This document shows positions 17,419 through 23,682 of a stretch of DNA of 36,386 bases, one piece after another. The notes under the pieces were generated by a model. It made no database searches. It was not told where the DNA came from and saw nothing but the letters and a program-made list of their open reading frames with translations. Position 1 is the stretch's first letter. The number at the start of each line of letters is the position of its first letter. The DNA lies in contig JAITBE010000093.1 of the NCBI GenBank assembly GCA_031283755.1, positions 1-36,386 of the forward strand. Reading direction: 5' to 3'. This stretch comes from Spirochaetaceae bacterium (GTDB taxonomy: Bacteria; Spirochaetota; Spirochaetia; Treponematales; Breznakiellaceae). The position numbers were made by a program, and so were the translations under genes.

Positions 17419-18438
17419 TCAAACACCGGTATTGCCCTCCGGTTTCGCCCAAAAATCATAAAAATTATACCATTGATACGGGTACTGTTTACAGTACTCC
17501 TCCAGGGATGCCGCGAAACTCCGGGCAAGCTCCCGAATCCTATCCCCCCGTTCTTTTCGGGAACAGTCGAAGGAGACGCTGCTTTTACGGACCATCATAT
17601 CGTATTCCGATTTCAGGGACAGGTCCTTTCTCCGCAGGGCAAACACAAAATAAACGGGAACCTTCAACAGAGCGGCGAGAAAAAACGGACCATAGGCAAA
17701 GGGCGCGTCTTCCCCCAAAAAGGGAAAAAGAAAATATTTGTTCCGGGTGTTAATTGAAGTCCGGTCCCCGGCGATCACCACAAGCTCCCCCTCGGCCAGC
17801 CGGTCCTGGAGCAAAACCGCCGTATCCGGGCCAAAGTCTTGCGCGTCAATGGTACGCAGTACCGATTGAGGATTCAGATCCCGTAACATCCGGTTGAAAT
17901 AGGCGGTTACGGAACCTTCAACCACCGAAGTTACGGGGATCTCCCGGGAGACACCGGTACGGTTAAAACCCGCCAGAGCCCGCAGGAGTTCGGCGTTCCC
18001 CAGATGGGAACAGATGAGGAACGCCCCCTCCCCTCTTTCAAGCCGGTTTTTCAGATCCCTGATATCATCCTCACGGAAATGGACCTGATCCAAAAAAAAT
18101 TTTCCCCCCCAGGATTCAACCTTTTCCACCAGGGTAATCGAAAAGGCGAGAATATGCCGCAGGGAGCTCCGGGGCGTTCTTTTATCCTTCGTTTTGACCG
18201 CCGCGGCTTTTTTAAGATACCGGCGGGACTCATCCCTGCCTTTTTTGGAGAAAACATAATAAAAAAAACCCACCGGAAAAGCGAGGAACCGTAAAACATG
18301 AACCGGCAGCAGCCTGAAAAGACAGAGGAGGAATCGTACCTGCCAATAACCCACGGCCTGTTCCTTATGTTCCGACCAATGCCGGGGCGGATCCGCGGAT
18401 GCTCCGGCGGATTTTACCGCAAATATCGAAGCCTTCAC
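17419..18438 (-). CDS. LpxL/HtrB-like lysophospholipid/lipid A acyltransferase
   Basis: ICSHLGNAELLRAL..., VVIAGDRTSIN, PVYFVFALRRKD; GTG start at 18438 overlapping the GT stop is favoured over the 18504 ORF start. Confidence 0.78.
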   Translation of the reverse strand: MKASIFAVKSAGASADPPRHWSEHKEQAVGYWQVRFLLCLFRLLPVHVLRFLAFPVGFFYYVFSKKGRDESRRYLKKAAAVKTKDKRTPRSSLRHILAFSITLVEKVESWGGKFFLDQVHFREDDIRDLKNRLERGEGAFLICSHLGNAELLRALAGFNRTGVSREIPVTSVVEGSVTAYFNRMLRDLNPQSVLRTIDAQDFGPDTAVLLQDRLAEGELVVIAGDRTSINTRNKYFLFPFLGEDAPFAYGPFFLAALLKVPVYFVFALRRKDLSLKSEYDMMVRKSSVSFDCSRKERGDRIRELARSFAASLEEYCKQYPYQWYNFYDFWAKPEGNTGV

Positions 18439-19187
18439 GGGCTCCTCCCGGGGACTTGGAACCGGCGGTAGATCGTTACCGGCAGACGGAGAAGCATGCC
18501 CCAAAAAAGCCTGAAAAAAACCAGGCTGATGCGGATATTATCCCGAACCAGACGAAAATGGGAAATCCCGTCCGGGGGGTACACCACCCGGACGGGATGG
18601 AAAAAAAGAGGAATCCCCAGCCAGACCAGGCGGACAAGGATTTCAATATCCACCCCCATCCGGGGATCAAGGCGGTACCGGTGGATAAGCCGCCAAAGGG
18701 GTTCCACCGGATACACCCGGAACCCGCACATGGCATCGGGAATGTTCCCGGAAAGGGCCGTTATCCGGGTCCAGACATTGGCAATATTCCGGCCTTTGAC
18801 ACGGCTTAAGGGGGCGGTTCCGTCAAATACGGGAAAACCGCAGATCGCCGCATCCGGATGTTTCGCGGATTCTTCCAGAAAAAAGGCCGCCTGCTCCGGA
18901 TCATGCTGTCCATCGGCGTCGATCTGCAAAAGATGGGTAAGTCCCAATTCCCGGGCCCGGTCTATACCCGCGCACAAGGCCGCCCCCTTGCCCCTGTTTT
19001 TATCCAGGGTTACCAGCATCACCCGGGGAAAGGTCCCGGCCGTATCCGCGATATAAGCCTTAGTTTCCCCGTCACTGCCGTCATCCACCAGGATCACCGG
19101 AAGGTCCCGTTGTTTCAGCAATTTTTCCACCAGGGGCCCCGTTGTTCTGCCATGGTTGTATACCGGGATAAGATAACCCTGTCTCAT
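18435..19187 (-). CDS. Glycosyltransferase family 2
   Basis: YLIPVYNHGRTTGPLVEKLL, VILVDDGSDGETKAYI, LTHLLQIDADGQHDPEQ. Confidence 0.92.
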   Translation of the reverse strand: MRQGYLIPVYNHGRTTGPLVEKLLKQRDLPVILVDDGSDGETKAYIADTAGTFPRVMLVTLDKNRGKGAALCAGIDRARELGLTHLLQIDADGQHDPEQAAFFLEESAKHPDAAICGFPVFDGTAPLSRVKGRNIANVWTRITALSGNIPDAMCGFRVYPVEPLWRLIHRYRLDPRMGVDIEILVRLVWLGIPLFFHPVRVVYPPDGISHFRLVRDNIRISLVFFRLFWGMLLRLPVTIYRRFQVPGRSP

Positions 19188-21253
19188 GGAACAGTTTCCT
19201 GGGAATTGGTCGTGGATAATAATAAAAGTCCTGTGGAATAAATTTTCTCACCGGGACCGGTAAAGGTAAAATTCAAGGTTTTTTTGAAGGGATCGTGACT
19301 CAACCTCAGGAAAACCCGGGAACCGGGACGGATCATGGCGGAAAATTTGAGCCGCTTTGCCCCGGCTAAGGTTATACCGGTGGCAAAATATTGGCGGGCA
19401 AACCGCAGGGCCAGTTCAAGCTGAGCCACTGCGGGGAGCAGCTTGAATTCCGGAAAGTGACCGTCAAAATAATCAACTTCCAAAGAAAACACAAACTCCA
19501 GCGTCACCGAGGTCCCGGTCCGCTCCAGTACCCGCAGGCAGGAGAGACCATGGAAGGACGGTAACTCCGCCGCCGGAACTGCCGGTTCCACGGTCTCTGC
19601 CGGTTCCGGCCGTGTGAACAGCGCCTGGATTTCGTCCCTTTTCTTTTTCCCCTGAGGATCCATGGGGAATGCCTCGATGTACCGCCAGCGTTTGGGAATC
19701 ACGACATTTTCAAAAAACCGTGAAAGATACTCCCGAAAATATTGATTCACGAGATATTTTTCGGTGTTACGGAATTTTTCAATCCCCGCCGGGTTTAAGA
19801 CCAGGACCGCCGCCAGATACTGCCGCTTATCCGCCAGGGCCACCACCGCGGCATCGGCCACGAGGCCGGATTGTACAAGGCGGTTTTCCACCTCCGGCAG
19901 GGAGATCCGTTTTTCCTCAATTTTGACGATTGAATCGGCCCGCCCATGGAGGAGAAAACAGCCGTTGGAAAGGATCTCCGCTAAATCCCCGGTGGTAAAA
20001 CCCGCGGGATCTTTGATATAGGGGGACCGGATCACGAGGCAGCCCGATTCATTAAGGGTTATACGGGCGTTATCAAAGGGGTTCCAGGCAAGGCCGTTCT
20101 TTGACTGCCGAAAGGCGATACCGCTGGTTTCGGTGCTGCCGTATACTTCCAGGGGCCAAAATCCCAGAACCTCGCTGGTTTTCCGCGCCGTATCCGGGTC
20201 CAGGACGCCGCCGGAGGTAAAGATCCAGGGAGAACGGAGCCGGAAACTCCTCTTCGCTTCCGGGCCCGCAGGCTCGATCTCCACGGCGCGTTTTAAAAAA
20301 GCGGGAACCGTAATGATCATATACGAATCGTCGGTTAATGTTTCCAGCTCCTCAGGGTACCTGATCCGGGAACGGCGGAAGGGTACGCCGGCGGTAAAGG
20401 GCAACAGAATAGAAAAAAGAAGCCCGTAAATATGGTGCTGGCTGACGGTGGAACAGACCTTGCGGCTCAAAAATTCCTCCCCCCATTTTGAGAGGATAAA
20501 GGCGTTGTCAATTTCGAATTCCGTCAGCCGTTGTTGAACGGCCTTGGGCCTCCCGGTGGTCCCCGAGGTATACATCATGATCACCGTCTCATCCCGGTTG
20601 ATGGCTGGGGGGGAAGCCGGCGGTATCAAAACGCCGGTGGAGGCTAACAGAGCGGGAAGGGAAAAGGAATCGGCCAGGTCCTGATCCGTCAAAACCGCTG
20701 TTCCGGGCAGGCGGATCTCGGCGATATACTCCGACGAAATATTTGCCGTTAGGAGGATCTGTTTTTTGCATTGAAGCAGGGCGGCAAACCCAACCAGAAA
20801 AAACCAGCAGTCCTCAGAATGGAGAATCCACTTTTCCGCCTCCTGAGTACCGATAAACTGCCGCAGCCGGGCGGTATCCTCCAGAAAATCTCCCCAGGTT
20901 TTATAGATTCCCCCGGTAAAGGTCCCGTCATAACACAGGATCCTATCAACGGAACGGGAAATGGGGCTCATCTGTGACAGGGGAAAAGCCCGGGGCATTT
21001 TTTTATCGACCCTCTTGCGAACCATCAATTCACCCCCAAATAATATACCGATAAATATATAGGAAATTCCGCCATTATACAAAGACCATAGGGCATCGGA
21101 GGCAAAAAAAACGGTCGCTGCCGCGATTCCTCCGTTTATAATAAAAAAAAGACACCAGACCAACGTTACTTTCCGGCAATAAGCTTCCACCCGCTTTTCC
21201 GCCAGGGACCCCCGGATGGTCTTATCCCACAAAACCGCAAACCGGAAGATCAT
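19184..21253 (-). CDS. Fusion protein: C-terminal half of COG4648-type membrane protein + AMP-dependent ligase + C-terminal hot-dog dehydratase (ApeG/ApeH/ApeI-like); frame stays open upstream to the A10 tract near 21450
   Basis: MYTSGTTGRPKAVQQR (A-domain), EVYGSTETSGI, HGRADSIVKIEEKRISLPEVE; C-term FDGHFPEFKLLPAVAQLELALRFAR (dehydratase); N-term VTLVWCLFFIINGGIAAATVFFASDALWSLYNGGISYIFIGILFGGE. Confidence 0.88.
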   Translation of the reverse strand: MIFRFAVLWDKTIRGSLAEKRVEAYCRKVTLVWCLFFIINGGIAAATVFFASDALWSLYNGGISYIFIGILFGGELMVRKRVDKKMPRAFPLSQMSPISRSVDRILCYDGTFTGGIYKTWGDFLEDTARLRQFIGTQEAEKWILHSEDCWFFLVGFAALLQCKKQILLTANISSEYIAEIRLPGTAVLTDQDLADSFSLPALLASTGVLIPPASPPAINRDETVIMMYTSGTTGRPKAVQQRLTEFEIDNAFILSKWGEEFLSRKVCSTVSQHHIYGLLFSILLPFTAGVPFRRSRIRYPEELETLTDDSYMIITVPAFLKRAVEIEPAGPEAKRSFRLRSPWIFTSGGVLDPDTARKTSEVLGFWPLEVYGSTETSGIAFRQSKNGLAWNPFDNARITLNESGCLVIRSPYIKDPAGFTTGDLAEILSNGCFLLHGRADSIVKIEEKRISLPEVENRLVQSGLVADAAVVALADKRQYLAAVLVLNPAGIEKFRNTEKYLVNQYFREYLSRFFENVVIPKRWRYIEAFPMDPQGKKKRDEIQALFTRPEPAETVEPAVPAAELPSFHGLSCLRVLERTGTSVTLEFVFSLEVDYFDGHFPEFKLLPAVAQLELALRFARQYFATGITLAGAKRLKFSAMIRPGSRVFLRLSHDPFKKTLNFTFTGPGEKIYSTGLLLLSTTNSQETVP

Positions 21254-21345
21254 GGACGGAGGTAACCTGAGGGTAAGGGAAAAGGCAATTAAGAGGGTTC
21301 CGTTAATGAATACCGGGTAAAGTTTTAAAAAAAGAGCGGAATTGG

Positions 21346-21603
21346 TTACAAAACAAAGGATACCAAGGCAGAGGAGCAGGAAGGAACAGCCCAGGGGCTG
21401 TAAGAATTCAGGCTGTAAGAGCCGCCCCGGGGAACCACTCTTTTTTTTTTCACCGAAACAACCAAAAAATAACCCAGAGCGATGAAACCCACAAAAAGCG
21501 CGATGATCCGCGGGGGGAGTTTAAAAAAAACCAAACCGCAAAAAATCACCAGGGGATACAGTACCGCCTGGATATACAAAAATATTCTGGAGACCTTAAA
21601 CAT
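21346..21603 (-). CDS. N-terminal part of COG4648-type membrane protein, out of frame (-1) with the downstream fusion ORF
   Basis: MFKVSRIFLYIQAVLYPLVIFCGLVFFKLPPRIIALFVGFIALGYFLVVSVKKK then A10; the -1 frame continues RLLQPEFLQPLGCSFLLLCLGILCFVTNSALFLKLYPVFINGTLLIAFSLTLRLPPSMIFRFA into the 19184-21253 ORF with no stop. Confidence 0.75.
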   Translation of the reverse strand: MFKVSRIFLYIQAVLYPLVIFCGLVFFKLPPRIIALFVGFIALGYFLVVSVKKKRVVPRGGSYSLNSYSPWAVPSCSSALVSFVL

Positions 21604-21605
21604 GA

Positions 21606-21854
21606 TTATGGAGCCTTGACCAGGGGGAAGAGAATATCCACCACATCCTGCAGGGTTTTAACGTTTTTAAACTGGGCCGGATCGATCTTATCGGTGGTAT
21701 ATTCTTTCATTTTGACAATAAGATCCACCGCGTCAATGGAATCAAGATCAAGATCCGTTGTCAAAGACGCCCCGGGGATGATTATGGCGGGTTCAAGATA
21801 AAATTCTTGAACCAGAATATCCTTTATGATAACAAAAAGTTCGTCCTTACTCAT
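21606..21854 (-). CDS. Acyl carrier protein (APE cluster, second ACP)
   Basis: LTTDLDLDSIDAVDLIVKMKEY phosphopantetheine site DSID. Confidence 0.9.
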   Translation of the reverse strand: MSKDELFVIIKDILVQEFYLEPAIIIPGASLTTDLDLDSIDAVDLIVKMKEYTTDKIDPAQFKNVKTLQDVVDILFPLVKAP

Positions 21855-22123
21855 AAAACCGGGCTCCTGGTGGTTTCCGCGCTTATAAAGGCGGCTAACG
21901 CATCCACCGATGCAAAATGTTTTTTGTTATCCGCGTTTTCCGCGGAAAATTTTACCCCAAACCGCTTTTTCAGGGCCACCCCCAGTTCCAGGGCGTCAAT
22001 GGAATCCAAACCCAACCCTTCACCAAAAATCGGCGCCGAATCATTGATGTTTTCAGGCTTTATATCCTCAAGCTCCAGGGCGCTGATTATCAATTCTTTT
22101 ATCTGTAACTTAAGATCACTCAT
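21851..22123 (-). CDS. Acyl carrier protein (APE cluster, first ACP)
   Basis: PIFGEGLGLDSIDALELGVALKKRFGV; stop overlaps next ACP start. Confidence 0.92.
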   Translation of the reverse strand: MSDLKLQIKELIISALELEDIKPENINDSAPIFGEGLGLDSIDALELGVALKKRFGVKFSAENADNKKHFASVDALAAFISAETTRSPVL

Positions 22124-22572: not shown

Positions 22573-23682
22573 GTGGACATAGAAAACTACAAAACAGATA
22601 CCATTCGGGCGGTGGACGCGAAATTTGAGGCTCAAAAGATATGTTTTGCCCCCTTAATTTTTCAGGCTGTCCGCGCCCTGCGGGAATTGGGAATTTTACG
22701 GAAAATATCCGACGCCGGGGATACCGGCTTGACCCGGGAGGAAGCGGCGGAGGCCAGCGGCCTGCCCGTATACGGTACAGGGGTTTTGGTTGAAATGGCC
22801 CTGGCCCTGGGCGTACTTAAACTCCGCGCCGATACCGCCGGAGGGCCGCCGGGGGAGGAGAAGTTTATCCTGGGGAAGATCGGTTGGTTCCTTCTGGAAG
22901 ATGATATGACCATCGTCAATTTTAATTTTGTAAATGATGTATGTTACCAGGGGGCATTTAAGCTTAAGGAATCGGTGCAGGAGGGTAAACCCCGGGGACT
23001 TTCAGTATTCGGTGAACAGTGGGGCACGATTTATGATGCCCTTGCTTCCCTCCCCCCCCGGACCCGGGAAAGCTGGTTCAACTTTGATCATTTTTATTCG
23101 GATATCGCCTTTCCCGAAGCCCTCCCGCTGGTATTTGAAACCAAACCCCGCCGCCTCTTTGACATCGGAGGAAATACCGCCAAATGGGCCATTGCCTGCT
23201 GCGCTTATGATCAGGCGGTGGAAGTTACTATCATCGACCTGCCGGGCCAAATTGCGGCGGCCCAAAAAAACGCCGCCGCCGCCGGTTTTGCGGCTCGGAT
23301 CTCCTGTTGCCCCGGTAATATTCTGGATACCGGAACCATCTTTCCCCCGGGGGCCGATGTGATCTGGATGAGCCAGTTTTTGGATTGTTTCTCCCCGGAG
23401 AAAATAGGCCTCATCATGGGGAAGATTCGGGCTGCCGTGTCGCCGGATACGGATATTTACGTACTGGAACCCCTCCGGGACAAGCAGCGTTTCGAGGCAT
23501 CCTCCTATTCCCTTCGGGCGATATCCCTCTATTTTACCTGCATGGCGAATGGTTCAAGTAAAATGTACTCTTTTACTGAGCTCAATCCGGCGGTGGAAGG
23601 AGCGGGATTCAAGCTGCAATCCGCCCGGCATGATCTGGGTTCCAATAACTATTCCCTGCTCCGTTACCGGAAGATCCCATGA
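22573..23682 (+). CDS. SAM-dependent methyltransferase, O-methyltransferase-like (APE cluster)
   Basis: GTG start; RRLFDIGGNTAKWAIACC (SAM motif I), VTIIDLPGQIAAAQKN, WMSQFLDCFSPEKI. Confidence 0.85.
   Translation: MDIENYKTDTIRAVDAKFEAQKICFAPLIFQAVRALRELGILRKISDAGDTGLTREEAAEASGLPVYGTGVLVEMALALGVLKLRADTAGGPPGEEKFILGKIGWFLLEDDMTIVNFNFVNDVCYQGAFKLKESVQEGKPRGLSVFGEQWGTIYDALASLPPRTRESWFNFDHFYSDIAFPEALPLVFETKPRRLFDIGGNTAKWAIACCAYDQAVEVTIIDLPGQIAAAQKNAAAAGFAARISCCPGNILDTGTIFPPGADVIWMSQFLDCFSPEKIGLIMGKIRAAVSPDTDIYVLEPLRDKQRFEASSYSLRAISLYFTCMANGSSKMYSFTELNPAVEGAGFKLQSARHDLGSNNYSLLRYRKIP

Follow-up and report, generated by a model that had tools for sequence, protein, structure and literature searches.

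The DNA that was analysed, here called the window, is a stretch of 36,386 nucleotides of a Spirochaetaceae bacterium genome (contig JAITBE010000093.1), and it carries a gene cluster of the aryl-polyene (APE) type. Profile searches identified two acyl carrier proteins, a ligase, an ApeI-like dehydratase, ketosynthases, a ketoreductase and a thioesterase, together with LolA-like, MMPL exporter, acyltransferase and glycosyltransferase genes; COG4648 was assigned by similarity only. The gene list of the E. coli aryl polyene cluster was used for comparison (PMC8253772). Divergent from the cluster lies a methyltransferase gene (22573-23682, plus strand) with a strong match to FlxJ (flexirubin) that stays below the cut-off (422 of 560 bits). 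Given this FlxJ-like methyltransferase, the cluster product may be flexirubin-like.

The gene under study starts with an ATG at 21603, immediately behind the nearer acyl carrier protein gene, whose stop lies at 21606. In this frame, called frame 0, the tract is read as GTG AAA AAA AAA AGA GTG, and translation terminates at 21346. No stop interrupts the -1 frame from 70 nt ahead of the tract (about 21520) via KKKSGSPGRLLQPEFLQPLGCSFLLLCLGILCFVTNSALFLKLYPVFIN... to 19184, where it ends. This confirmed, in coordinates and in frames, the original prediction of a gene split at an A10 tract with the -1 frame open into a ligase/dehydratase. The 689-aa ligase/dehydratase ORF that had been described exists, but it is only the ATG-started part of the -1-frame piece, which amounts to 754 aa from the tract. 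The features are collected in Table 1. Comparison of the COG4648 domain with solved structures gave no significant fold match.

Table 1. Features of the split gene and its neighbours in the window
Feature	Position	Strand	Description
Second acyl carrier protein, upstream	21851..22123	minus	NCBIfam NF006617, above cut-off
Acyl carrier protein immediately upstream	21606..21854	minus	NCBIfam NF003757, above cut-off
Frame-0 ORF, 85 aa	21346..21603	minus	COG4648 (ApeG-like) helices 1-2 up to the tract, then an unconserved tail of 30-odd codons
A10 slippery tract	21441..21450	minus	Switch point from frame 0 (upstream) to -1 (downstream); homologous A10 in 18 of 43 loci
-1-frame continuation, 754 aa + stop	19184..21448	minus	Remaining COG4648 domain, acyl-ACP ligase, ApeI-like dehydratase
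COG4648 membrane domain, C-terminal part from helix 3, -1 frame	20984..21448	minus	Similarity to in-frame orthologues; no Pfam model match
AMP-binding (ligase) domain match	20108..20653	minus	Pfam PF00501, E 1.1e-19
AMP-binding_C domain match	19646..19894	minus	Pfam PF13193, E 2.1e-5
ApeI-like dehydratase domain match	19262..19501	minus	Pfam PF22818, E 1.5e-6
Glycosyltransferase gene, downstream	18435..19187	minus	Its ATG overlaps the stop codon of the fusion (ATGA)

The predicted structure of an in-frame relative (locus L005) places the run in a loop of the COG4648 domain that joins helices 2 and 3 (mean pLDDT 82, with the lowest value, 57, at the tract). This loop is lysine-rich and, in the alignment, hypervariable in length. 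Since its length varies so much, small indels in the loop should be cheap, and this tolerance would explain both the origin and the persistence of the tract at this place. The COG4648-ligase fusion is already present in in-frame treponeme relatives, and L005 carries the three-function fusion; outside the spirochaetes, COG4648 forms an ORF of its own at all 13 loci examined. The idea that slippage creates the three-function fusion was rejected, because the treponeme relatives are fused while in frame. Thus, of the proposed protein of about 800 aa made by slippage, the full-length product is supported by the comparison, but slippage is not what creates the fusion. Nor does the tract seem placed to set a ratio of ligase to membrane anchor, as had been suggested, since it lies inside the COG4648 domain and not between the anchor and the ligase. 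The short truncated membrane peptide survives as a two-helix fragment; however, it is half a membrane domain with an unconserved tail and not a free anchor.

The break was then compared with orthologues in related genomes. The search set comprised 201 genomes of the window's family, one per species, all drafts and several of them from one project, and a relative of the gene was found in 59. In 43 loci (41 in the family and two outside it) both the half with the first helices and the rest could be placed. The named copies come from Treponema/Spirochaetaceae metagenome-assembled genomes; their isolate codes and family read as a termite-gut origin.

The comparison bore out the core of the original prediction, and showed that the break recurs. 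At the tract site 15 of the 43 loci are broken, in 15 genomes and 10 genera of the window's treponeme family, and in all 15 the frame change coincides with exactly A10, never with A7-A9. The shift needed is -1 in 14 of them, in two codon phases, and +1 in the remaining one (L111). Five loci are in frame despite a run of at least A9 (L005 with A11; L038, L048 and L058 with A10; L053 with A9), and L005 is sister to the window's clade. None of the 23 loci lacking such a run is broken (Fisher p = 1e-7, with related loci counted as independent). In a related treponeme family all 60 loci are in frame, and the longest run is A9. Uninterrupted orthologues free of the homopolymer, which had been thought able to overturn the prediction, do exist (these 23 loci plus the 60 of the other family), but they are interspersed with the broken ones on the tree and do not refute it. 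When the broken state is mapped onto the tree of the downstream protein, about 8 changes are required, and well-supported branches force at least 4 of these; as far as the tree goes, the break was gained or lost repeatedly and does not go back to a single old accident.

Two further arrangements were seen among the relatives. In L042, L055 and L101, about 1.5 kb into each, the COG4648 domain is apparently devoid of helices 1-2 and begins directly before helix 3. At eight loci of the same family (L009, L056, L092, L100, L103, L106, L107 and L117) no COG4648 half can be recognised directly upstream of the ligase copy, and these loci are possibly second copies or rearranged clusters.

Long runs are rare elsewhere. 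A survey of 185 kb surrounding the 43 loci counted 461, 153, 82, 17 and 0 further A/T runs of lengths 6, 7, 8, 9 and at least 10, respectively, while A10 occurs at the tract site itself 18 times. The window's own genome (2.78 Mb) contains 97 A9 runs, 8 A10 runs and 2 runs of A11 or longer; of the eight A10 runs, only the tract at 21441-21450 breaks a long conserved frame, and no similar breakage was found at the other A10 runs or at the two longer ones. Note that just one other A10 of this genome (L122, contig C128:4163) lies within a long ORF, of which more than 600 codons are open, and is in frame; an A11 (L129, contig C155:6629) is also in frame, in a short ORF that by eye resembles ZapA (AVENTKKKTGLEDPLKIAIITGFLLCDELQ).

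Since the assemblies are draft metagenome assemblies, several of them from one project, a miscounted homopolymer or an assembly error had to be weighed as the source of the break. Against this, an identical A10 length was found in 15 genomes of 10 genera, with the -1 offset in 14 of them, whereas A9, A11 and in-frame A10 also occur at the site and the 60 loci of the other family are in frame. The recurrence across 10 genera makes a simple assembly error, on which the prediction could have foundered, very unlikely, and we give an artefact of either kind next to no chance.

Selection was estimated as dN/dS from pairs of broken relatives sharing A10, in which silent sites have diverged widely. 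The stretches compared are short, and the ratios are rough estimates. For L051/L093 the ratio was 0.084 before the tract, 0.072 after it and 1.18 in the frame-0 tail, and for L054/L057 it was 0.17, 0.29 and 1.24, respectively. For the window and L004, of the same genus, it was 0.51 before the tract (51 codons), 0.32 after it and, further on in the COG4648 part, 0.16, with a value of 0.60 in the frame-0 tail that covers 18 codons only and carries little weight. Constraint on the window's own N half is thus only moderate (0.51). The frame-0 tail also varies in length and sequence among loci. Judged by these ratios, both halves of the gene are under purifying selection and the frame-0 tail is not.

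These values also bear on the idea that the gene is a pseudogene, or that it encodes two proteins, with the frame-0 two-helix piece made separately from an enzyme that begins at an internal start. The enzyme half could be translated from a conserved Met (MIFRF), which in the window lies 197 nt downstream of the tract start, and L042, L055 and L101, which do without the first two helices, would fit such a division, as would L110, with its ATG 14 nt after the tract start. However, purifying selection acts on both halves, including the -1-frame stretch from the tract to the MIFRF Met. Moreover, in six loci (L003, L004, L044, L051, L054 and L057) the downstream frame contains no ATG, GTG or TTG from the tract to helix 3, so this frame is hardly reachable there except via the tract. 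Internal re-initiation was rejected because this constrained stretch offers no such start in the six loci, and we regard a pseudogene or a pair of proteins as highly improbable. Note that in L110, which is broken, re-initiation is possible at its early downstream-frame ATG, unlike in most others.

A further possibility is phase variation, in which slipped-strand mispairing during replication would leave some cells with A11 or A8 (on) and most with A10 (off), the assembly reporting the majority. Homopolymers are a standard device for this, and genes of the surface and envelope are frequent cases (PMC3711429); APE lipids belong to the envelope (PMC8253772), and L005 has an A11 in frame. Yet among the 20 runs of A9 or more at the site, 18 are exactly A10, a count made between species, whereas free switching should spread the lengths and produce a fair share of runs in the on state. 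In addition, the consensus is off in nearly all broken lineages despite strong constraint on the downstream frame. We consider phase variation quite unlikely here.

Taken from these comparisons, the gene is probably functional, with its full-length product made by slippage of RNA polymerase at the A10. Gain of one A in the transcript (A11), or loss of two (A8), would bring the upstream and downstream frames into register, and the full-length COG4648-ligase-dehydratase of about 800 aa would be read only from transcripts slipped at the tract. Unslipped A10 transcripts would give the 85-aa two-helix fragment, and they could also lower downstream expression by polarity, which is possible because the next gene overlaps the stop codon of the fusion. 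Genes that use slippage are expected to change frame at a homopolymer of at least 8-9 A or T, and this was found in 15 of 15 broken loci; the frame change is conserved across genera (15 genomes, 10 genera), and purifying selection acts in both frames across the break. For comparison, the GeneTack criteria ask for 5 or more genes with a conserved site (PMC3711429). The core of the original prediction, slippage or a -1 frameshift at a conserved A10, has good support from the 15 broken loci in 10 genera and the selection on both sides, but its functional part is unsupported.

The shift could instead be made by the ribosome, by -1 frameshifting on A AAA AAA in an unedited A10 mRNA, with the tract as the whole signal. 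Exactly -1 is needed in 14 of the 15 broken loci, and any run of at least A7 contains a slippery heptamer of the X XXY YYZ type in every phase, so that A AAA AAA fits both codon phases observed. The stimulators that accompany such sites are a different matter: no Shine-Dalgarno-like element or downstream hairpin common to the broken loci was found, and the folding z-scores lie mostly between -1.4 and +1.1, with two exceptions. The CCCCGGGG hairpin after the tract was rejected as a stimulator: it is no more stable than shuffled sequences (z = -0.07) and is not conserved. Moreover, A7 would suffice for the ribosome, yet the out-of-frame run is always A10, and in an E. coli system ribosome sliding is robust at A11 and slight at A9 or A10 (PMC4363877). 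L111 needs +1, which polymerase slippage gives directly by the loss of one A, although this argument rests on one locus. Frameshifting by the ribosome as the whole explanation seems to us unlikely; RNA polymerase is the favoured slipping machine, with the ribosome as a possible helper. A point against polymerase slippage comes from Borrelia, also a spirochaete, for which suppression of slippage on long runs has been proposed (PMC1088944).

The single +1 case, L111 (G201:C215), combines the most stable downstream fold (z = -3.1) with the strongest upstream Shine-Dalgarno-like match (-8.4 kcal/mol), and it may work differently from the other broken loci.

Since 23 of the 43 loci lack the tract, the A10 arrangement is not needed for function. 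The narrow distribution of tract lengths favours some selection on length, and two alternatives suggest themselves for the A10: a regulatory set-point, or a tolerated defect that persists because the gene would not survive loss of the run. As a set-point, the A10 would be held by selection while slippage fixed a low, steady fraction of full-length product, and perhaps of the exporter operon too via polarity, so that the frame turned over while the run stayed; we hold this to be possible but doubtful. If true, it would place such a device in termite-gut treponemes with genomes of ordinary size, with frames turning over between -1, +1 and in-frame.

In the open-access literature, the coverage of which is incomplete, no earlier account of slippage was found for Treponema or for biosynthetic clusters. 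The locus looks like a natural case, spread over many genera, of a bacterial biosynthetic operon whose expression depends on slippage. The known slippage examples compared come from endosymbionts with reduced genomes, from secretion systems and from insertion sequences, and the treponeme operon falls outside these. Its -1, +1 and in-frame relatives form a comparative series in which regulatory runs could be set against merely tolerated ones. In practical terms, annotation pipelines will label the gene as broken, or omit helices 1-2, in many spirochaete genomes.

Finally, we compared the locus with known systems. In tssM1 of Citrobacter rodentium, slippage on an A11 amounts to 20-25% in the RNA, and the in-frame counterpart is tssM3 of Yersinia pseudotuberculosis (PMC4256274). 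As in the treponemes, a long A run lies in a membrane-protein gene; the out-of-frame version gives the long form by slippage and the in-frame version the short form, a pair that parallels the broken loci and the in-frame L048 and L058. The difference is that tssM1 has A11 and proof from RNA and protein, whereas the treponeme locus has A10 and evidence from sequence, across a far wider series of genera.

Among the endosymbionts, Buchnera and Blochmannia are reported to keep poly(A) frameshifts by slippage (cited in PMC3017870 and PMC5009743), with 12-50% of transcripts corrected on endosymbiont poly(A) runs (PMC5009743). There too a poly(A) frameshift is common to several species, the gene is undecayed and corrected transcripts are the explanation; those genomes, however, are described as AT-rich and strongly reduced, with more than 100 long runs in coding regions. 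By contrast, the treponeme has a 2.8-Mb draft genome, a window of 51% GC, 8 A10 runs and one gene that is repeatedly affected.

E. coli dnaX and other genes with -1 ribosomal frameshifting share with the treponeme loci an A-rich slippery site, the -1 direction and a truncated plus a long product, but the treponeme loci have no common Shine-Dalgarno-like element or stem-loop, a longer run and one +1 case. As for the cluster, E. coli ApeG, ApeH and ApeI (PMC8253772) agree with the window in their three functions, in the order of these and in the two acyl carrier proteins that precede them; they are encoded there by separate genes, whereas in the treponemes COG4648 is fused to the ligase and, in the window, also to the dehydratase.
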